Origin: a virus | Length of the DNA stretch: 59,891 nucleotides | Direction: 5' to 3' (one strand) | IMG/VR virus record: IMGVR_UViG_3300043425_000307 | Span: 1 to 59,891 of that record | Shown here: one piece after another, positions 21,122 through 37,220 of the stretch | How positions within the stretch are numbered: position 1 is the first letter of the stretch | How the letters are laid out: each line of letters begins with the position of its first letter | Notes under the pieces: generated by a model | Databases searched by the model: none | What the model was told of the DNA's origin: nothing | Seen by the model: the letters and a program-made list of their open reading frames with translations, nothing else | Program-made: the position numbers and the translations under genes

Positions 21122-22141
21122 ATGTCTAATCTATTTAAAAAAGCAGCAGTCTGCACCGATATCCATTTTGGCTTAAAAAGCAACAGTCAAACACACAACG
21201 ACGATTGCTTGAATTTCATAAAGTGGTTCTCTGCCAAGGCAAAAGAGGAAGGATGCGAAACAGCGTTCTTCTTAGGGGACTGGCACAACAATCGAGCGTC
21301 AATCAACATTGTGACTCTCAACTACAGCCTCAGAGCCTTGGAGCACCTGAATGACCATTTTAAAGCTGTTTATTTTATTCCTGGCAATCACGATCTTTAT
21401 TATCGCGACAAGAGAGATGTCCAAAGTGTGGAATGGGCGCGGCACTTACCTAACGTTCATATTTGTAATGATTGGCATATTGGTGGCGACGTGGTTATTG
21501 CTCCTTGGTTGGTTGGTGACGATCATAAGCGTATTCCAAAGCTAAACGCCAAGTACATGTTTGGGCATTTTGAACTACCACACTTCTATATGAATGCCAT
21601 GGTACAGATGCCGGATCACGGTGATGTCAAACGTGAAGACTTTCACGGCATTGAACGTGTGTTTACTGGACACTTTCACAAGCGTCAAACGCACAAGAAC
21701 ATTACTTACATTGGCAACTGCTTTCCACACAACTATGCAGACAATCACGACGACGAGCGTGGTATGATGATACTGGAATGGGGTGCAGAGCCGGAGTATC
21801 ATGCATGGCCCAATCAACCCAGATATCGTGTGTATCAACTTAGCGATGTTTTACAAAATACCGATGCACTGTTGAATCCAGGTATGCATGTGCGTGTGAA
21901 TCTTGATGTGGATATCAGTTATGAAGAAGCCACATTCATCAAAGAAACATTTGTAAATACTTACAATCTTAGAGAGATTACACTTATTCCTCAAAAAGTT
22001 GTAAGCGAAGATATCAATTACGACATCACTGGCAATATCATGTTTGAAAGTGTGGACACTATTGTGACCAATCAACTTACAAATATTCAAAGCGAGCAGT
22101 ATAACAAAAATTTGTTGCTAGACATTTATAGAAATCTCTAA
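21122..22141 (+). CDS. gp47: Recombination endonuclease subunit gp47 (Mre11/SbcD-like)
   Basis: A 339-aa protein, the same size as T4 gp47 (339 aa). The metallophosphoesterase motifs are in order: TDIHFGLKS (residues 12-20), GDWHNN, GNHDLYY and GHFHKRQ, giving the Asp/His/Asn set that binds two metal ions. gp47 with gp46 forms the phage Mre11-Rad50 complex that resects double-strand ends for recombination-dependent replication. The stop overlaps the gp46 start (TAATG at 22139-22143), matching the need for equal amounts of the two subunits. The ATG at 22122-22124 in local numbering of gp46 does not conflict with it; gp47 itself starts at the ATG at 21122. Confidence 0.95.
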   Translation: MSNLFKKAAVCTDIHFGLKSNSQTHNDDCLNFIKWFSAKAKEEGCETAFFLGDWHNNRASINIVTLNYSLRALEHLNDHFKAVYFIPGNHDLYYRDKRDVQSVEWARHLPNVHICNDWHIGGDVVIAPWLVGDDHKRIPKLNAKYMFGHFELPHFYMNAMVQMPDHGDVKREDFHGIERVFTGHFHKRQTHKNITYIGNCFPHNYADNHDDERGMMILEWGAEPEYHAWPNQPRYRVYQLSDVLQNTDALLNPGMHVRVNLDVDISYEEATFIKETFVNTYNLREITLIPQKVVSEDINYDITGNIMFESVDTIVTNQLTNIQSEQYNKNLLLDIYRNL

Positions 22142-23910
22142 TGTTTAAAATTAAAACACTTGCGGTAAAGAATTTTATGAGCGTGGGTAATGCTACCCAG
22201 GCTGTTCAGTTTGATCGAAAAGATCTTACTCTTGTGCTAGGTCAGAACTTGGACCTGGGCGGAGACGACACAGGAGCCAGGAATGGAACTGGCAAAACAA
22301 CCATTATTAATGCACTAAGCTATGCTCTCTACGGCGCCGCTCTAACCAATATCAAAAAAGATAATCTTATCAATAAAACAAATGGTAAGAACATGCTGGT
22401 CACAATTGAGTTCGAAAAAGACGGTGTTGATTATCGAATTGAACGCGGTCGCAAGCCTAATACCATGGCTTTCTATGTTGGTGGAGAAGAGCAGCAAATC
22501 ACCGACGAAAGCCAAGGAGATAGCAGAGAAACCCAAGCAGAAATTGAACGCATGTTGGGCATGAGCCATGACATGTTCAAACACATTGTTGCACTCAACA
22601 CTTATACCGAGCCGTTCCTTTCACTCAAAGCCAACGATCAAAGAACTATCATTGAACAGTTGCTAGGCATTACAATGCTGTCCGATAAAGCTGATGCATT
22701 AAAGGAGCAACTGAAAGCAACCAAAGATGCTATTACAGCGGAAGAGTATCGTATCAAAGCTGTGACAGATGCCAATGCCCGCATACAAGAACAAATTGAA
22801 GCCACACGTCGTAGACAAACCTTGTGGACCAATAAAAATCTCAATGAGATCAATGAACTAAGATCTGCACTAGACGTAGTTGGTGACATCGACATTGAGC
22901 CCGAACTTGCAGCACACGATGCGCTAGACGAATGGAATAAAAATTCACAAAAGAAAAACGAAATAGGTAAATGGAAAACTGCTTGCGAATTAGAGCAAGT
23001 GAAGATTCTTAAAACTTTAGATAAATTAAAATTAGAAATTGAAAAATTAGAAAAACACGAGTGTTATGCGTGTGGGCAGACCATGCACGATGCCAAACAC
23101 GAAGAAGTACTCAACGAAAAACGCACAACATTAAAAGAAACTGCATTGCAGTATCTTGCCAACGACGAACAATTGATGTCGCACACCGAAGCATTAGACC
23201 TTATTGGCGATCTTGGTCCTGTGCCTCGAGTGTTTTACGATCGCAAAGAAGATGCTATCAATCACAAAAACACTGTGGCCAATTTGAAACAACAATTAGA
23301 AACATTGACCAATGCTCAAGATCCATATGCTGAGCAAATTCGAGAAATGGAAACTCAGGCACTGGAAGAAATCAATTATGATCTAATTAACGAACTTGCT
23401 AATGTAAAAGAACATCAAGAATTTTTACTTAAACTTTTAACTAATAAAGATAGCTTTATTCGTAAACGTATTATTGATCAAAATCTAAGTTATCTAAATT
23501 CAAGACTGAGTCAATATCTAGATCGTATTGGATTACCGCACACTGTAAAGTTCCAAAATGATCTAACTGTTAGTATCGAGGAACTGGGTAGAGAACTAGA
23601 CTTTGACAACTTATCTAGAGGCGAACGTAATAGATTGATTCTAAGCCTAAGCTGGGCGTTCCGCGATGTGTGGGAAAGCTTGTATCAGCCTATCAACTTG
23701 TTGTTCATTGATGAAGTTATTGATACCGGTATGGACAGTTCAGGTGTAGAAAACAGTTTAGCTATTCTCAAGAAGATGAGTCGCGAAGGCAATCGCAGTG
23801 TTTGGTTAGTGTCACACAAAGACGAACTTGCTGGGCGAGTAAACAACGTGTTAAGTGTGGTTAAAGAAAACGGATTTACAAGTTATAACACCGATGTTGA
23901 AATTGTTTGA
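22141..23910 (+). CDS. gp46: Recombination endonuclease ATPase subunit gp46 (Rad50/SbcC-like)
   Basis: A 589-aa protein, close to T4 gp46 (560 aa). The Walker A motif is NGTGKTT (residues 48-54). Long coiled-coil arms (about 180-480) flank a zinc-hook CYAC (Cys308 and Cys311). Near the C-terminus are the ABC signature LSRGERNR and the Walker B LLFIDEV, followed by a D-loop-like GMDSSG. This is the complete Rad50-family layout: ATP binding drives opening and closing of the gp46-gp47 nuclease complex at DNA ends. It overlaps gp47 by one base and its last 17 nt overlap the first radical-SAM gene, so that gene is probably part of the same transcript. Confidence 0.95.
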   Translation: MFKIKTLAVKNFMSVGNATQAVQFDRKDLTLVLGQNLDLGGDDTGARNGTGKTTIINALSYALYGAALTNIKKDNLINKTNGKNMLVTIEFEKDGVDYRIERGRKPNTMAFYVGGEEQQITDESQGDSRETQAEIERMLGMSHDMFKHIVALNTYTEPFLSLKANDQRTIIEQLLGITMLSDKADALKEQLKATKDAITAEEYRIKAVTDANARIQEQIEATRRRQTLWTNKNLNEINELRSALDVVGDIDIEPELAAHDALDEWNKNSQKKNEIGKWKTACELEQVKILKTLDKLKLEIEKLEKHECYACGQTMHDAKHEEVLNEKRTTLKETALQYLANDEQLMSHTEALDLIGDLGPVPRVFYDRKEDAINHKNTVANLKQQLETLTNAQDPYAEQIREMETQALEEINYDLINELANVKEHQEFLLKLLTNKDSFIRKRIIDQNLSYLNSRLSQYLDRIGLPHTVKFQNDLTVSIEELGRELDFDNLSRGERNRLILSLSWAFRDVWESLYQPINLLFIDEVIDTGMDSSGVENSLAILKKMSREGNRSVWLVSHKDELAGRVNNVLSVVKENGFTSYNTDVEIV

Positions 23911-24766
23911 AACAGTTAGAGTATTACACTTAGAGCCAACTGACGTTTGTCAGGCGGCTTGTCCTTCTTGTGCGCGAGAAACTGATCCCGCATTTAATAA
24001 AAAAATCAAGCACTCGCTTACTCCCACTGACATTCGACGTATACTTCCTGACCATGTAATTTATCGCTTAGATAAAATGTTCATGTGTGGCAATTACGGC
24101 GACCCTGCTGCCAGCGAAGCATTAGCCATCGTTGATCATTTTAGAAACATTAATAGCAGCATTACAATTGGTATGAACACCAATGGTGGATTACAAGCTG
24201 CATGGTGGTGGACGGCCTTGGGAGAACGACTAAACAATCCTCTTGATTATGTAGTGTTTAGCATTGATGGATTAGCGGATACCAATCACATTTATAGAAA
24301 AAATATAGTGTGGGATCGAGTAATGACTAATGCAGAAGCATTTATTCGTGCTGGTGGTTCGGCTCATTGGGATATGTTGGTGTATGAACACAACGAACAT
24401 CAGGTTGAGCAATGCGAACAATTGGCACGAACAATGGGCTTTAAATGGTTTAGAGCTAAGGTTAGTAAACGTGTGCCCACTGTGGATTGGTTGCGGGCAC
24501 CAAAAGGTTGGTCAAGACCTGTTATAGAAACTGGCCCAATTGATTGCTTTAGAAATCGTGATCAAAGTTTATATCTTAGTGCTCGCGGTGTGTTCCATCC
24601 GTGTTGCTGGTTAGGTGTAACAGATTACACTGTCAATGACTTTGATCAAATTGCATCTTCGTGGGATACATCTAGTTGCAACCCAACATGTCAAGCTACC
24701 TGTAGTACTGTTAATAATATGTCAAACTTTACTGGGCAGTGGCAAAGGAACGTGGCTTTATGTTAG
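23894..24766 (+). CDS. Radical SAM protein with SPASM-like C-terminus, copy 1
   Basis: A 290-aa protein. The radical-SAM cluster motif is CQAACPSC (Cys19, Cys23, Cys26; CxxxCxxC), followed by MCGNYGDPAA and FSIDGL, typical of the partial TIM barrel that binds S-adenosylmethionine. The C-terminus has more cysteines: Cys218, the FHPCCW pair (237-238) and a CxxxCxxxC (262, 266, 270), resembling a SPASM/twitch domain that carries extra Fe-S clusters. SPASM enzymes usually modify peptides or proteins; the substrate here is unknown. I chose the ATG at 23894 over a GTG at 23855; it overlaps gp46 by 17 nt. The next gene encodes a second protein of the same family, overlapping by 7 nt. Confidence 0.85.
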   Translation: MLKLFETVRVLHLEPTDVCQAACPSCARETDPAFNKKIKHSLTPTDIRRILPDHVIYRLDKMFMCGNYGDPAASEALAIVDHFRNINSSITIGMNTNGGLQAAWWWTALGERLNNPLDYVVFSIDGLADTNHIYRKNIVWDRVMTNAEAFIRAGGSAHWDMLVYEHNEHQVEQCEQLARTMGFKWFRAKVSKRVPTVDWLRAPKGWSRPVIETGPIDCFRNRDQSLYLSARGVFHPCCWLGVTDYTVNDFDQIASSWDTSSCNPTCQATCSTVNNMSNFTGQWQRNVALC

Positions 24767-25767
24767 CAACTTGGCACTTTCATATTGAAATAAGCAGCAA
24801 ATGCACATTGTCTTGTCCTAGATGCGCTAGACAAGAAGTGCCCAATACTCTTGTCAACACTGAACTAGATTTAGCATTTTTTCAACGCAATTTTACACCG
24901 GAGTTTATTTGTAGTGATGTTGAAAAAATTACATTTTGCGGTGATGATGGCGATCCTATCTATGCACATGATTTAATTCCTGTAATCAGGTACATTAAAG
25001 ATATCAAGCCCACTGTTGAAATTGTTATTGTCACTAACGGCAGTTATAAAAAAACTGAGTGGTGGCAAGCGTTAGGTGATGTTTTAACTGGTATAGACAG
25101 TGTGCATTTTAGCATTGATGGATACGATCAGGCATCAAATGCACAGTATCGTGTAAACAGCGATTGGGCGAGTATTATTGAAGGCATACGCACTCTTCGA
25201 GCTGCTAGTAATGTGCAGATTGTGTGGGCTGCTATTGCGTTTAAATTTAACGAAGATGCAATAGAAAGCATGAAATCTTATGCGAAACAGCTAGGTGTAG
25301 ATAGATTTCAATTGACTCGTAGTACCAAGTTCGCAAAGGTGTATCCTGTGTACGGGCCAGCTGATCAATTGCAACCATCGAACAATTTTATTAGTAAAAC
25401 TGAGCGGTTTGAAAGAGAATTAACTGATTTTACTTTTCGCTCTAATCCTGTTCCTGGTATTAACTACATGCTGTACAATACTGTAAAAGACAACAAATTA
25501 ATTGTGCCGTTGTGTAGTATCGGAAACAAAGGATTGTATATATCTGCTCAGGGCCTGCTATATCCTTGCTGTTGGGTCGCTAATAGATATAGTCACAACA
25601 ACGAGTGGCAGGAAATAGCTCGTAAATTTGATTTAAACAAATGGAAGTTAGAGGAGTGTTTAGCAGATCAATTTTGGCACAACGATTTTCAAACCTACAA
25701 ATGGCGCGAATGTCAAACCAAATGTACTGCTGCGGTAGTTGATGAAAATTACGCAACTGAATGGTAA
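24760..25767 (+). CDS. Radical SAM protein with SPASM-like C-terminus, copy 2
   Basis: A 335-aa paralogue of the preceding gene. The cluster motif is CTLSCPRC (Cys15, Cys19, Cys22), followed by FCGDDGDPIYA, IVTNGSY and FSIDGYDQ. C-terminal cysteines lie at 252, in YPCCW (270-271), at 300 and in CQTKC (318, 322), parallel to copy 1 but not identical. I chose the ATG at 24760, with AAGGA about 10 nt upstream, over a GTG at 24739. The 7-nt overlap with copy 1 suggests coupled translation and perhaps a heteromeric enzyme. The function is unknown: peptide, protein or nucleotide modification are all possible, with the SPASM-like tail favouring peptide or protein. Confidence 0.85.
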   Translation: MLATWHFHIEISSKCTLSCPRCARQEVPNTLVNTELDLAFFQRNFTPEFICSDVEKITFCGDDGDPIYAHDLIPVIRYIKDIKPTVEIVIVTNGSYKKTEWWQALGDVLTGIDSVHFSIDGYDQASNAQYRVNSDWASIIEGIRTLRAASNVQIVWAAIAFKFNEDAIESMKSYAKQLGVDRFQLTRSTKFAKVYPVYGPADQLQPSNNFISKTERFERELTDFTFRSNPVPGINYMLYNTVKDNKLIVPLCSIGNKGLYISAQGLLYPCCWVANRYSHNNEWQEIARKFDLNKWKLEECLADQFWHNDFQTYKWRECQTKCTAAVVDENYATEW

Positions 25768-25786
25768 AGAGATAATTATATGCTGT

Positions 25787-26221
25787 ATGTCATGGCTATT
25801 TGAATCCACTCTTGTGGAAACCCTTCCTGAGGATTGCGTGGGATTTGTGTATTTGATCACAAATACAGTATCTGGGCGCAAATACATAGGGAAAAAACTA
25901 GCCAAATTTTCAAAAACTACAGTAAAAACAGTAAAACTCAAAAACGGCACTAAAAAGAAAAAGAAGATCAGAAGCAAGATTGACAGCGATTGGCAAGAAT
26001 ATTATGGCTCAAACGACGAACTCAAAAAAGACATACAAACACTAGGCCCAGAAAAATTTACAAGAGAAATACTTTTTTACTGCAAATCAAAAGCTGAATG
26101 TTCATATATTGAAGCAAGAGAACAATTCCGACACCAAGTCTTAGAATCAGATGATTATTATAACGGACATATACAGGTCCGTGTCCATGGCTCTCACATT
26201 AAAAACAAACTAAGCAGTTAA
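25787..26221 (+). CDS. GIY-YIG nuclease-like protein
   Basis: A 144-aa protein with the two short GIY-YIG strands, GFVYLI (from residue 19) and RKYIGKK, a Lys-rich insert, then DWQEYYGSNDELKKDI, FTREILFYCKSK and YIEAREQ, the order seen in Seg-type and related phage GIY-YIG proteins. The Glu in YIEAREQ is the candidate metal ligand. Such proteins cut DNA and often act as free-standing homing endonucleases; a repair or non-mobile role is also possible. I chose the ATG at 25787 over the upstream TTG at 25739, which would overlap the radical-SAM gene by 29 nt. AAGAGA lies about 18 nt upstream, so the ribosome binding site is weak. A structured non-coding region follows at once. Confidence 0.75.
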   Translation: MSWLFESTLVETLPEDCVGFVYLITNTVSGRKYIGKKLAKFSKTTVKTVKLKNGTKKKKKIRSKIDSDWQEYYGSNDELKKDIQTLGPEKFTREILFYCKSKAECSYIEAREQFRHQVLESDDYYNGHIQVRVHGSHIKNKLSS

Positions 26222-26225
26222 GCTC

Positions 26226-26548
26226 GCACAAGCCAATATCGTGTGCCCTATACCTGGTTGAAATAGACACAGGGACGGAAGCCTTCTCGCTGCAAGAAGC
26301 ACTCAACTACTACCCTTCGGGATGAAGATCGCAAATGCCGCGATTTAGTTGTTTGAACAGGATTAAAAAGGCTAAAAAGACGCGATAGCGATATCGCACG
26401 GTTAACTACATGCTGATATATGTAAATTAACCCGCCGTTGTACAAGAACGGAGCTCGAGGTACAGGACAACCGCCTCTGTAATGCTCTAATATCAGTGAC
26501 TGTGCTACTCAGATGAAGCGCATATATTTTTTGCCCGCCCTGGGCAAA
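26226..26548 (+). ncRNA. Candidate structured non-coding RNA in the only long gene-free gap
   Basis: The gap 26222-26630 holds no convincing gene. On the plus strand it folds into a chain of perfect or near-perfect stems: 26226-30 with 26242-46; 26304-09 with 26346-51 enclosing 26327-32/26340-45 and a small UUCG-loop hairpin at 26311-24; 26382-87 with 26392-97 closed by a GCGA (GNRA-type) loop; 26400-05+26407-11 with 26420-24+26427-32; 26435-39 with 26447-51; and TTTGCCC at 26530-36 with 26542-48. UUCG and GNRA loops occur in the plus orientation only, which favours a plus-strand transcript following the GIY-YIG gene. I recognise no known RNA family: it is not a tRNA or tmRNA, and no group I core was found. 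The stems are read directly; that it is a functional RNA is an inference. Confidence 0.45.
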
Positions 26549-26576
26549 GAGTGACCGATTAATCTAGATGAAACTT

Positions 26577-26630
26577 AAAAAAACATATTGATGAGCGATA
26601 GCGAAATCAATAGATTAGCGCAGCTAATCT
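26577..26630 (-). terminator. Terminator hairpins downstream of the nucleosidase gene (possibly bidirectional)
   Basis: Two hairpins stand side by side. AGATTAGC/GCTAATCT (26612-19 with 26623-30, 3-nt loop) abuts the nucleosidase stop. TATTGAT/ATCAATA (26586-92 with 26606-12) follows and, on the minus strand, runs into seven T (26583-26577). This fits a rho-independent terminator for the minus-strand nucleosidase operon. The first hairpin could also stop plus-strand transcripts, though only a short T stretch follows it. Confidence 0.55.
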
Positions 26631-27167
26631 TTATAATAGATTAAAGTCTTTAAGAACTTTAATATAATATGGTTCACCTGATGCTACTTGAGTTTGCCAA
26701 TCTGTACCTGCTGAGTGATCTGCTTGATCAGTGACATATTTGTAGCAATGAAATTTGATGTTGTTGAGTTCGCATGCTTTGGCTAGTGCATAGGCTTCCA
26801 TATCTACTACATCAGCTGGTATGTCCAAGATATTGTTGGTGACAAAGTTGTCTCCTGTGCTGCATATAGCACCTGTTGGGTCAGTTATAATAGCATGCTT
26901 GGTTTCAAACGGGGTTTGGCCTGGGTTGGGCATTAATGGCATACACAGCATGTCTCTTTGTACAAATTGAGTACAATGCACTAGTCCTGTCTGTGTGATT
27001 CCACCGGCTGTACCAAAATTGAATATTCGTTTTGGTTTGTATTCGTGTATGAGTTTTGCCACAGTCAGTGCTGCATTTACTTTGCCTACTCCGGTAAAGA
27101 ATACATTGGGATACTGCTGCAGACTTGGGGCTTCTTCCCGAATAGCCAATATGATAATATCTTGCAT
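26631..27167 (-). CDS. MTA/SAH nucleosidase-like enzyme (nucleoside phosphorylase fold)
   Basis: A 178-aa protein with the motifs of 5'-methylthioadenosine/S-adenosylhomocysteine nucleosidases: Glu11/Glu12 in IREEAP (the general-base position of E. coli MTAN), GVGKVNAA (26-33), FGTAGG (51-56), VVDMEAYALAKAC with Glu124 (ribose binding), and TDQAD with Asp147 (the catalytic Asp position). The family cleaves adenine from MTA, SAH and also 5'-deoxyadenosine, the by-product of radical-SAM enzymes. It is about 50 residues shorter than the E. coli enzyme (232 aa) but keeps all these residues. The ATG shares a base with the stop of the small upstream gene (TAATG). The link to the two radical-SAM genes 0.9-3.3 kb away is an inference. 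Confidence 0.82.
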   Translation of the reverse strand: MQDIIILAIREEAPSLQQYPNVFFTGVGKVNAALTVAKLIHEYKPKRIFNFGTAGGITQTGLVHCTQFVQRDMLCMPLMPNPGQTPFETKHAIITDPTGAICSTGDNFVTNNILDIPADVVDMEAYALAKACELNNIKFHCYKYVTDQADHSAGTDWQTQVASGEPYYIKVLKDFNLL

Positions 27168-27379
27168 TAGAAAAATGGCATTCCTGATTTCTTGGCAGTT
27201 TCTAGATTGTCTTTGACTATTTTGCTAATGATTCTACGTTCATCTAAACTCAGCAGCATGGCATCATTGTAATCAAGTCCACCGCGCATGTACCAACATA
27301 ATCTTAAAACTTCTTCTTTTATGGCTTTTGACTGTGCTTCTAATCTATCAAAGTAAGCTATCATGTCCTCAGTGGACAT
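27167..27379 (-). CDS. Small protein of the gp26 operon, possible tail/baseplate assembly factor
   Basis: A 70-aa protein, mostly helical and charged: MSTEDMIAYFDRLE, LRLCWYMRGGLDYNDAMLLS, then an ERRIISKIVKDNLE helix and a KKSGMPFF end. The ATG at 27379 (11 nt after the gp26 stop, AAGG ribosome site) is preferred over the TTG at 27385. Genes of this size and style sit beside gp26 in aquatic T4-like phages as I remember them, and short helical proteins next to hub genes are often assembly helpers (compare T4 gp51). I cannot assign a function from sequence alone. Confidence 0.6.
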   Translation of the reverse strand: MSTEDMIAYFDRLEAQSKAIKEEVLRLCWYMRGGLDYNDAMLLSLDERRIISKIVKDNLETAKKSGMPFF

Positions 27380-27390
27380 AGTCAAAAGCC

Positions 27391-28227
27391 TTAACCGAAA
27401 AAATTGGCATTATCAAAGTTTAGTTCTGTACGATAGGTCTTGTGACATTCGCCGCATTCGATTTCAAGTGCATTGGGTTTGGTTGATTCTACAAATTTTT
27501 CGATCTGCGATTTAATTTCTGCATAAACATTTCGATCACAGTTTTCAATGAACTCTTTAATAAATCTAAATTCTGACACTTGAGTGCCGTCGCCAGTCAC
27601 AATTGATTCAATACAATAAACCAGAGCCAGCACATTTAAATCAGTTAATTTGGGAAAAATTGAATTGAATTGAGCAGTTTTTTCTTCGTCTGACAATTCA
27701 CTGCTGGTAATAGCATCTAGCAGTTTACGCTGTTCGAACACCATGATGTTGGTGTTGTTCATGGTTTCAAATGCCTGTGGTCTAAAGTTGAATGTTAGAT
27801 TCTCAATTGGGGTTGGGCGATAGTCGGGCGCCTTTAAGTTATCTAACAGCACACGCAAATCTACCACATTGGTTGTGGTTTCGTTGCATTCTGGACATAC
27901 ACTTTCAATATCCATGTCTGAACCATAACTGGCCAATCTTATAGCAATCAAAATAGCATCTAGGTCCGATGCTGGAATTTTCCAAGCATCTTTGATGTTT
28001 GGGCAACAACTTTGTATGGTATCTACTACCCCAACACCGTTCATTAGTGCGTCTGGTGTTTTGATAGTGATCTCATCTTTGACTGTCATTGGATATACAG
28101 GAATTTCGCCAGTGGGCGGTATGTCAATAGAGCCTTCGGGCCAAAATCTACCCTGGCTGGGCAGTTTTAAATAAATTGCTGGTTGACGAAAATGTTTGAA
28201 CAGCGGGTTATTAGCAGGATTTGCCAT
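27391..28227 (-). CDS. gp26: gp26-like baseplate hub subunit/assembly protein
   Basis: A 278-aa protein. The N-terminus (PLFKHFRQPAIYLKLPSQGR) and the following IPVYPMTVKDEITIKTPDAL fit the T4 gp26/gp51 hub-assembly family. A CPECN near residue 100 and a CGECH near the C-terminus are paired Cys-x-x-Cys knuckles that could bind one zinc ion between them. It should act in building or completing the central hub of the baseplate. It is somewhat longer than T4 gp26 (208 aa). A perfect TATAAATA late promoter lies upstream on the minus strand, and the tape-measure gene is transcribed away from it on the other side of a 53-bp gap. Confidence 0.75.
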   Translation of the reverse strand: MANPANNPLFKHFRQPAIYLKLPSQGRFWPEGSIDIPPTGEIPVYPMTVKDEITIKTPDALMNGVGVVDTIQSCCPNIKDAWKIPASDLDAILIAIRLASYGSDMDIESVCPECNETTTNVVDLRVLLDNLKAPDYRPTPIENLTFNFRPQAFETMNNTNIMVFEQRKLLDAITSSELSDEEKTAQFNSIFPKLTDLNVLALVYCIESIVTGDGTQVSEFRFIKEFIENCDRNVYAEIKSQIEKFVESTKPNALEIECGECHKTYRTELNFDNANFFG

Positions 28228-36663: not shown

Positions 36664-36675
36664 GTTCTCGAGAAC
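36664..36675. repeat. 12-bp perfect palindrome GTTCTCGAGAAC in a late leader
   Basis: A perfect inverted repeat starting 6 nt after a late promoter octamer and 53 nt before the next start codon. It would sit at the very 5' end of the transcript, or could be a protein-binding site. Confidence 0.5.
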
Positions 36676-36728
36676 TTATGCGGAGCCAACCGCGTAGGCC
36701 TAGAACGCCAATTTAAGGAGAAAACAAA

Positions 36729-37220
36729 ATGGCACGTGGTTTAAAAATCAGTCATGAAAGAAGTGATGGTACACTAGTTGATCAAGAAGTAAGCACAACA
36801 ATTAGCTCAATTGGTGGTACTGGCGGTCGCCCACAGTGGATCACTGTACAAGGTGTAAAAACTGTTAAAGTTCAATTTAATACAGATGCAAGCATATATC
36901 ACGGCAATGCATATATTGTTGCACAAAAAGGTGCAAGACAATTCTTGGTAGCAAACGCAGTTGGCTCAATTGAAGATGCCACTCACAGCAATGCAAGCGT
37001 CACCGTAGCTACTTTAACTGCTGGAGCAGATGCAGCAAATGCAGCCCCAGCATCCGGAGCAGCCGCAATGACAGTCACAGGATACAATACCAGTAATGTT
37101 CGTTTCTATGTTAAGAGAATTTCTAACAAATATGTTTGGGATTTTAGCAACAACAGATATCGTTGGCGCACAAGCGACAATGTAGCTACAAGCACTTTTG
37201 CTAACGTAGAATGTCATTAA
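36729..37220 (+). CDS. Virion protein downstream of gp23, possible head decoration protein
   Basis: A 163-aa protein with its own late promoter and terminator, directly after the capsid gene. The N-terminal ~80 residues are beta-rich (IGGTGGRPQWITVQGVKTVKV, cut here to its pattern of alternating hydrophobics). The middle (about 90-115) is Ala/Thr-rich, and the end is aromatic and basic (VRFYVKRISNKYVWDF, RYRWRTSD). A single-gene transcription unit next to gp23 would allow high expression, as expected for a capsid decoration or abundant tail protein. I do not recognise the family, and the role is inferred from position only. A strong TAAGGAG ribosome site precedes the ATG. Confidence 0.6.
   Translation: MARGLKISHERSDGTLVDQEVSTTISSIGGTGGRPQWITVQGVKTVKVQFNTDASIYHGNAYIVAQKGARQFLVANAVGSIEDATHSNASVTVATLTAGADAANAAPASGAAAMTVTGYNTSNVRFYVKRISNKYVWDFSNNRYRWRTSDNVATSTFANVECH

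Follow-up and report, generated by a model that had tools for sequence, protein, structure and literature searches.

What do two radical S-adenosylmethionine (SAM) genes do when they stand in tandem directly behind the recombination gene gp46 of a T4-like virus, and does the nucleosidase encoded a short way downstream work with them? The locus that raises this question lies in the IMG/VR virus record IMGVR_UViG_3300043425_000307, of which the whole stretch of 59,891 bases was analysed (the window); its gene content is T4-like, with gp47, gp46, a late sigma factor and a gp26-like baseplate gene. Radical-SAM enzymes carry out difficult chemistry, and an earlier note on this DNA had read the two genes, here called rSAM1 and rSAM2, together with a methylthioadenosine/S-adenosylhomocysteine (MTA/SAH)-type nucleosidase as a possible undescribed phage modification module. 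The answer that we tentatively favour is that the pair, with its twitch-type domains, would oxidise a sugar, nucleotide(-sugar) or glycan precursor, that it is one cassette of an exchangeable slot at gp46, and that the nucleosidase is separate. The pair has the following features:

23894..24766, plus strand: rSAM1, twitch-type radical-SAM protein of 290 amino acids
23948..23971, plus strand: rSAM1 CxxxCxxC cluster motif (C19, C23, C26)
24545..24703, plus strand: rSAM1 auxiliary-cluster cysteines C218, C237/C238, C266 and C270
24760..25767, plus strand: rSAM2, twitch-type radical-SAM protein of 335 amino acids
24802..24825, plus strand: rSAM2 CxxxCxxC cluster motif (C15, C19, C22)
25513..25725, plus strand: rSAM2 auxiliary-cluster cysteines C252, C270(/C271), C318 and C322

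The two open reading frames (ORFs) are paralogues of 25-30% identity that narrowly pass the Pfam cut-off of 29.5 bits for PF04055 (Radical_SAM), with 31.8 bits for rSAM1 and 29.7 for rSAM2. The CxxxCxxC motif, which the earlier note had placed at residues 19-26 and 15-22, is invariant in all 54 nonredundant rSAM1 and all 69 nonredundant rSAM2 members (sets that include the window's own proteins), as is a further cysteine ahead of a GxxGDP-like motif (C65 and C60, respectively). Among pairs with unsaturated sites, the median ratio of nonsynonymous to synonymous substitution rates is 0.14 for rSAM1 (11 pairs) and 0.11 for rSAM2 (42 pairs), which indicates purifying selection and more than chance ORFs. 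The pair is real and conserved, and it is probably enzymatically active.

The same note had counted six or seven cysteines in each C-terminal tail and taken the tails to be of SPASM type. The counts are right for the window's proteins (seven in rSAM1, six in rSAM2), but the conserved set is smaller: five cysteines in rSAM1 (C218, C237, C238, C266 and C270; 54/54) and four in rSAM2 (C252, C270, C318 and C322; 69/69), to which C271 is added in 64 of the 69. Their spacings are alike, C218-x18-C237 and C266-x3-C270 in rSAM1 and C252-x17-C270 and C318-x3-C322 in rSAM2, and none of these sets is degraded in the homologues. Two auxiliary clusters, as in SPASM domains, need seven cysteines. Five conserved cysteines in rSAM1, and four, or five with C271, in rSAM2 thus point to one twitch-type cluster and not to a two-cluster SPASM domain; the cut-off of PF13186 (SPASM, 21.5 bits) is missed by rSAM2 (12.7 bits), rSAM1 gives no match to it, and the SPASM reading was dropped. 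A review gives two clusters as typical of SPASM domains and one of twitch domains (PMC9012708; this and the papers cited below are represented by excerpts). As judged from sequence, rSAM1 and rSAM2 are intact paralogous twitch-type radical-SAM enzymes with one predicted auxiliary cluster each. The identification of rSAM2 as viperin, hinted at by the top Foldseek match and weak sequence matches, was also abandoned (NF038283 31.3 bits vs a cut-off of 180; conserved cysteine tail present), and a profile search of solved structures with rSAM1 gave only weak matches, the best (E 0.019) to a NifB-like radical-SAM protein.

What such enzymes would do can be outlined step by step. The N-terminal [4Fe-4S] cluster would cleave SAM to a 5'-deoxyadenosyl radical, this radical would abstract a substrate hydrogen, and an auxiliary cluster with cysteine ligands only, like that of BtrN, would take the second electron, giving a net two-electron oxidation. 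Auxiliary clusters have four cysteine ligands in BtrN and three in MoaA, and BtrN carries out a two-electron oxidation of its substrate (PMC9012708); from the four-cysteine auxiliary set, together with the four ligands and the oxidation of BtrN, we infer a BtrN-like oxidation. Sugars, nucleotides or nucleotide sugars, and glycan precursors would be likelier substrates than ribosomal peptides. We put this two-electron oxidation forward with reserve, its substrate being the more conjectural part.

The pair is held at a fixed place, flanked by two genes:

22141..23910, plus strand: gp46, SbcC-like recombination nuclease subunit, upstream of rSAM1 (phrog_77, E 3e-104)
25787..26221, plus strand: SegE-like GIY-YIG gene directly after rSAM2 (PF19835, 5.8e-34; position conserved; ATG picked by eye)

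Translational coupling to gp46, as the earlier note had suggested, agrees with the overlaps of 17 nt between the rSAM1 ATG (23894) and the gp46 stop and of 7 nt between the rSAM2 ATG (24760) and the rSAM1 stop. Relatives were found in 208 viral-contig stretches for rSAM1 and 211 for rSAM2. The best 80 relatives were kept for each of four seeds (of 208 for rSAM1, 211 for rSAM2, at least 599 for gp47 and 284 for the nucleosidase), so that the counts lean to close relatives; loci sharing at least 2 kb at 95% identity or more were merged into groups, and the threshold for calling rSAM1 or rSAM2 was 45% identity. The rSAM-seeded group counts omit L001-L003 and L158-L160, which are either named phages or copies of the window, and keep the window's contig twin (L004/L084, 100% identical). 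The rSAM1 start lies -26 to +13 nt from the gp46 stop in 122 of the 126 loci with both genes, rSAM1 and rSAM2 overlap in 85/85 loci, and the gap between rSAM2 and the SegE-like gene is at most 60 nt in 119/125. Of the 108 rSAM-seeded groups whose gp46-SegE interval is complete, 59 have both genes, 26 have rSAM1 alone and 23 rSAM2 alone; the tandem is common, yet each enzyme also occurs singly. Neither enzyme, then, depends on the other, a point relevant to every sort of two-step pathway.

When groups were seeded with gp47, and thus sampled regardless of radical-SAM genes, rSAM1 or rSAM2 was found in 10 of 43 and any radical-SAM gene between gp47 and the SegE-like gene in 29 of 43. Relatives with 82-94% identical gp47 (e.g., L161, L163, L166, L170 and L171) carry other radical-SAM proteins, 34-39% identical, at the same site, and across all loci the 210 distinct sequences of at least 240 amino acids at the two sites beside gp46 fall into 17 subfamilies (42% linkage). 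The gp46 site is an exchangeable radical-SAM slot. The pair would be one cassette of it, and T4-like carriers hold more such genes elsewhere. A third radical-SAM subfamily stands between gp47 and gp46 in L006 (7334-8209), L079, L095, L114, L120 and L177, and a B12-binding radical-SAM protein (L031, 3083-4597, and 12 others of its cluster; PF02310 plus PF04055 in the one member scanned) occurs mostly at the same gp46-SegE site.

The overlap with a recombination nuclease gene invites the thought that the pair serves hypermodification of phage DNA bases, and radical-SAM steps do occur in base-modification pathways. The neighbouring window proteins that were scanned matched no base-modification family, which speaks against it; PF18724 (ADDT) had no match in 21 records, where the control gave no match either. 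We consider this role decidedly improbable.

Predicted folds were compared with solved structures as a second line of evidence. AlphaFold gave models with a mean predicted local distance difference test score of 95.9 for rSAM1 and 91.9 for rSAM2, and Foldseek ranked BlsE first for rSAM1 and viperin first for rSAM2. BlsE decarboxylates cytosylglucuronic acid (PMC3715490). In VIA-align (Z; rmsd, aligned residues), rSAM1 scored 17.8 against BlsE (3.6, 236), 17.7 against SkfB (3.2, 236), 17.2 against SuiB (3.6, 242), 16.7 against DesII (4.2, 253) and 16.3 against MoaA (4.2, 238), and rSAM2 scored 18.9 against SuiB (3.9, 265), 18.2 against BlsE (4.0, 267) and 17.6 against both DesII (4.2, 278) and SkfB (4.3, 261). 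These rows, among which BlsE, DesII and MoaA stand for nucleoside or sugar chemistry, are mostly tied, and the fold consequently gives no choice between peptide and sugar/nucleotide substrates. With SuiB, SkfB and anSME among the closest folds, and with NCBIfam peptide-maturase models matching rSAM2 weakly and far under cut-off, the pair could act on a peptide or a protein, be it of the virion, of the host ribosome or another, whose gene lies elsewhere. Against this stand the tail, whose cysteines are too few for a SPASM domain with two clusters, and the solo occurrence of each gene in the 108 groups. Beside the pair, moreover, no precursor gene for a ribosomally synthesised and post-translationally modified peptide was found, given the overlap of the two genes and the short gap to the SegE-like gene, although a distant precursor is possible. 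Peptide or protein modification appears unlikely to us, and the oxidation outlined above is preferred.

The second half of the question concerns the nucleosidase. On the plus strand the order is gp46, rSAM1, rSAM2, the SegE-like gene and an RNA, followed by the nucleosidase on the minus strand:

26221..26354, plus strand: Rfam RF01718 Polynucleobacter-1 RNA, between the SegE-like gene and the convergent nucleosidase (109.1 bits, gathering threshold 37)
26631..27167, minus strand: MTA/SAH-type nucleosidase (PNP_UDP_1; PF01048, 2.2e-17)
27167..27385, minus strand: o72, small conserved gene between the gp26-like gene and the nucleosidase
27391..28227, minus strand: gp26-like baseplate gene, first in the nucleosidase's minus-strand gene group (PF12322, 4.1e-17; phrog_150)

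As had been noticed from the letters, the nucleosidase lies within 0.9 kb of rSAM2 and retains its catalytic residues: it scores 63.7 bits for PF01048 (cut-off 25.1), and putative catalytic E12, E124 and D147, which we take to be equivalent to those of the E. coli nucleosidase, are invariant in 11/11 aligned homologues. It falls under every NCBIfam equivalog cut-off listed (best 90.7 vs 129). The note had further supposed that it serves the pair by clearing 5'-deoxyadenosine, which inhibits radical-SAM enzymes, so that the three genes would be one module. Proximity in the window favours this, as does the direction of two counts that fall short of significance: among complete intervals, the nucleosidase occurs in 7 of 75 groups with rSAM1 or rSAM2 and in none of 18 others (p 0.34), and a radical-SAM gene lies within 5 kb in 12 of 13 nucleosidase loci of gp46/gp26 context vs a background of 29/43 (p 0.15). 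Radical-SAM genes track the gp46/gp26 context and not the nucleosidase (12/13 inside vs 1/12 outside, p 3e-5), and the nucleosidase is present in just 2 of the 20 records that have radical-SAM matches. Its ATG overlaps the o72 stop by 1 nt, so that it looks coupled to the strand of the baseplate genes and not to the radical-SAM operon, and elsewhere it often stands with adenine phosphoribosyltransferase (APRT). The nucleosidase was dropped as a partner after three tests (rSAM- and gp47-seeded loci, whole records and nucleosidase-seeded loci), and a single module is in our view very unlikely. Its chemistry could destroy 5'-deoxyadenosine without its being a dedicated partner of the pair.

The neighbours of the nucleosidase suggest another function. 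Eighty nucleosidase-seeded loci gave 45 groups, of which 25 had full 5-kb flanks and 20 were dropped before counting. Of these 25, 19 contain a SegE-like gene, 13 a radical-SAM gene and 6 NrdA/NrdB, and in 14 an APRT-like gene of the same orientation stands immediately upstream of the nucleosidase. The 12 loci with no detected radical-SAM gene within 5 kb are to be read with the detection method, blastp from sampled representatives plus the CxxxCxxC motif, which may miss divergent members (the same kind of scan gave none in 4 of the 108 rSAM-seeded groups, all of which hold such a gene by their construction). The APRT call is supported by NCBIfam NF002636, above cut-off in 4/4 proteins tested, with other APRT models below theirs, and the Nrd call by Pfam at one locus. 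The SegE-like gene is a frequent neighbour of both the radical-SAM pair and the nucleosidase, and this common neighbour suffices to explain their proximity. L398, L400 and L378 carry NrdA, NrdB, APRT, the nucleosidase and a SegE-like gene in that order on a single strand, an apparent route from adenine salvage to deoxynucleotides, and phage C48C1 has annotated ribonucleotide reductase genes, then a nucleosidase and a SegE-like gene, with one PF04055 match about 22 kb off. Adenine released by the nucleosidase would be turned into AMP by APRT and enter nucleotide synthesis. Most likely, as far as homology and gene order indicate, the nucleosidase is a separate adenine-salvage function and not the dedicated partner of the pair. 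This reassignment matters: adenine salvage, alongside APRT and ribonucleotide reductase, is the better reading of the gene. The open-licence literature searched for phage genomes with the nucleosidase and APRT held nothing beyond an item on Staphylococcus aureus strains.

The RNA between the two strands belongs to the same surroundings. RF01718 starts at the SegE stop in the window (26221), and it was found in 7 of 10 related loci, at most 32 nt from the SegE match in six and 0.8 kb on in L019, in 6 of 20 related viral records, and above cut-off in 3 of 399 Paraburkholderia-order genomes, in one of them near two recombinase-like ORFs (by eye). It is listed for Burkholderiales and fresh water or estuary (PMC2864571), and it may be a phage-borne RNA common to phages and hosts. 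A freshwater-2 RNA (RF02980), a cis-regulatory candidate, lies at 36665-36731 on the plus strand of the window (52.4 bits vs 49.9 in Rfam).

Related phages can hold far more radical-SAM genes than the window. Twenty related viral records, picked by length and not at random (12 rSAM-seeded, 8 gp47-seeded), have 1-17 PF04055 matches each at E 0.001, a count that includes some matches under the Pfam cut-off and some with two per ORF; G006 and G011 have 17, and the eight gp47-seeded records 3, 10, 5, 9, 8, 4, 1 and 7. In seven stretches (L240-L244, L246 and L249), four to seven ORFs with CxxxCxxC are consecutive or nearly so, each array with a NodU-like carbamoyltransferase ORF, which Pfam confirmed in the one scanned. 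Four of the six array proteins scanned belong to NF033640 above cut-off (E 2e-86 to 1e-104) and two do not. SGNH-like genes stand beside some arrays, and the one scanned exceeds the cut-off for DUF6071 only. Carbam_trans_N was found in 14 of the 20 records, in 14/14 at 1.5-7.4 kb from a radical-SAM match, and arrays and carbamoyltransferase are possibly a phage biosynthetic cluster. On a wider view, the gp46 slot and the relatives' arrays with carbamoyltransferase might be phage-run radical-SAM biosynthesis of an oxidised, carbamoylated sugar or nucleotide that decorates virions, DNA or the host surface, a picture that we regard as some way from probable.

Cellular relatives, sought in bacterial and archaeal genomes with an rSAM1 alignment, were found at 73 loci (23-43% identical), many of them in Bdellovibrionales, Desulfobacterales and Microcoleus, and some resemble phage contigs in metagenome-assembled genomes (MAGs). 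From 32 chosen loci, 121 of 202 neighbouring ORFs were scanned, leaving out Microcoleus, L288 and L303 and the high-GC L252, L258 and L282, where ORF calling was poor; L270 yielded no neighbours, and L254 was without a radical-SAM ORF. Within the 121, the most frequent Pfam families are glycosyltransferases (GT2 7, GT1-type models 5 each, GT28 C-terminal 3), and nucleotide-sugar dehydrogenases, epimerases and GSCFA occur twice each, whereas no glycan-type genes were seen by eye at the Microcoleus loci. These neighbours are a lead towards glycans, from a tally that lacks a background rate. L257, L261 and L255 (Bdellovibrionales and a marine gammaproteobacterial MAG) have multi-radical-SAM clusters like the phage arrays, some of them maybe misbinned phage contigs. 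Among the 399 Paraburkholderia-order genomes, a single one has an rSAM2-like gene at E 1e-20, and that one is the centre of the search, so that rSAM2 gives no clue to host genes.

Several observations weigh against an oxidising pair with a sugar, nucleotide or glycan substrate and a separate nucleosidase. The peptide enzymes SkfB and SuiB tie with the sugar/nucleotide enzymes in fold (17.7 and 17.2 for rSAM1; SuiB 18.9 for rSAM2), and the coupling to gp46 would suit a nucleic-acid role too. The glycosyltransferase tally comes from a partial neighbour sample, and no glycosyltransferase was matched among the eight neighbouring window proteins scanned. The window record has no carbamoyltransferase match and no radical-SAM matches besides rSAM1 and rSAM2, but it may be a fragment. 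The nucleosidase counts (7/75 vs 0/18) run in the direction of a link, short of significance, and no APRT was found in the window, so that salvage there would need a host APRT or one beyond the fragment.

If the biosynthetic picture is true, the contents of the gp46 slot would change along with hosts or rivals, and natural-product chemistry would gain phages as a source, should arrays and pair prove to make a new metabolite; the small gp46-coupled pair, with relatives in some two hundred viral stretches, is a practical first target.

How the pair compares with known systems depends on the feature that is compared. The array proteins of the twitch subfamily NF033640 occur in the same kind of phages, but their SPASM/twitch-like stretch is N-terminal, and rSAM1 lies far below the family cut-off (18.1 bits vs 170); for rSAM2, the 25 families listed of 27 do not include it. 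The nucleosidase shares PF01048, the conserved residues and, in its relatives, adjacent APRT with the MTA/SAH nucleosidase family, from which it differs by falling below the equivalog cut-offs and by a window without an APRT match. BlsE (7vob), a cytosylglucuronate decarboxylase, ranks at or near the top of the solved folds for each of the two models, but identity is 17% and 15%, its Z lies within 1 of the peptide enzymes, and the likeness is one of predicted fold. BtrN and MoaA have in common with the pair a radical-SAM core and a C-terminal tail whose cysteines suffice for a single auxiliary cluster (Z 14.3 and 14.8 for BtrN and 16.3 and 17.1 for MoaA, with rSAM1 and rSAM2, respectively), and the four cluster ligands of BtrN are like the four invariant tail cysteines of the pair. 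BtrN is absent among the sequence matches to solved structures, the NCBIfam model for MoaA gives 21.7 (rSAM1) and 40.6 (rSAM2) bits vs a cut-off of 284, and neither is a phage-borne tandem pair. A freshwater T4-like population from Lake Baikal has radical-SAM, MTA/SAH nucleosidase and methionine adenosyltransferase genes, for which synthesis of pyrroloquinoline quinone (PQQ) and a SAM cycle in methylotroph phages were proposed (PMC7678222). A role of the pair as a metabolic helper for synthesis of a cofactor such as PQQ would follow that proposal, but the PqqE model, whose cut-off is 381 bits, reaches 24.2 on rSAM2 and is absent from the rSAM1 listing, and PqqE is a SPASM enzyme (PMC9012708); we hold such a role to be extremely unlikely. 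The same population, and other radical-SAM-rich phages, make "undescribed" too strong a word in its broad sense. Radical-SAM-rich phages have been noted since 2010, with the product unnamed (PMC2853527), and are a known kind: a marine T4-like genome has 12 radical-SAM proteins (PMC5332604), two pelagimyophages differ in radical-SAM cassettes that freshwater members of the group lack (PMC7029224), and radical-SAM genes are present in marine viromes (PMC7150976, PMC9301287). The gp46-coupled pair, the carbamoyltransferase arrays and a tested function for phage radical-SAM genes were not found in the open-licence literature searched. The Campylobacter phages CP220 and CPt10, with 11 and 12 radical-SAM proteins, some of which form an interchangeable module (PMC2853527), infect another host group; what they share with the phages described here is the many radical-SAM genes, one of them with 22% identity to rSAM2.

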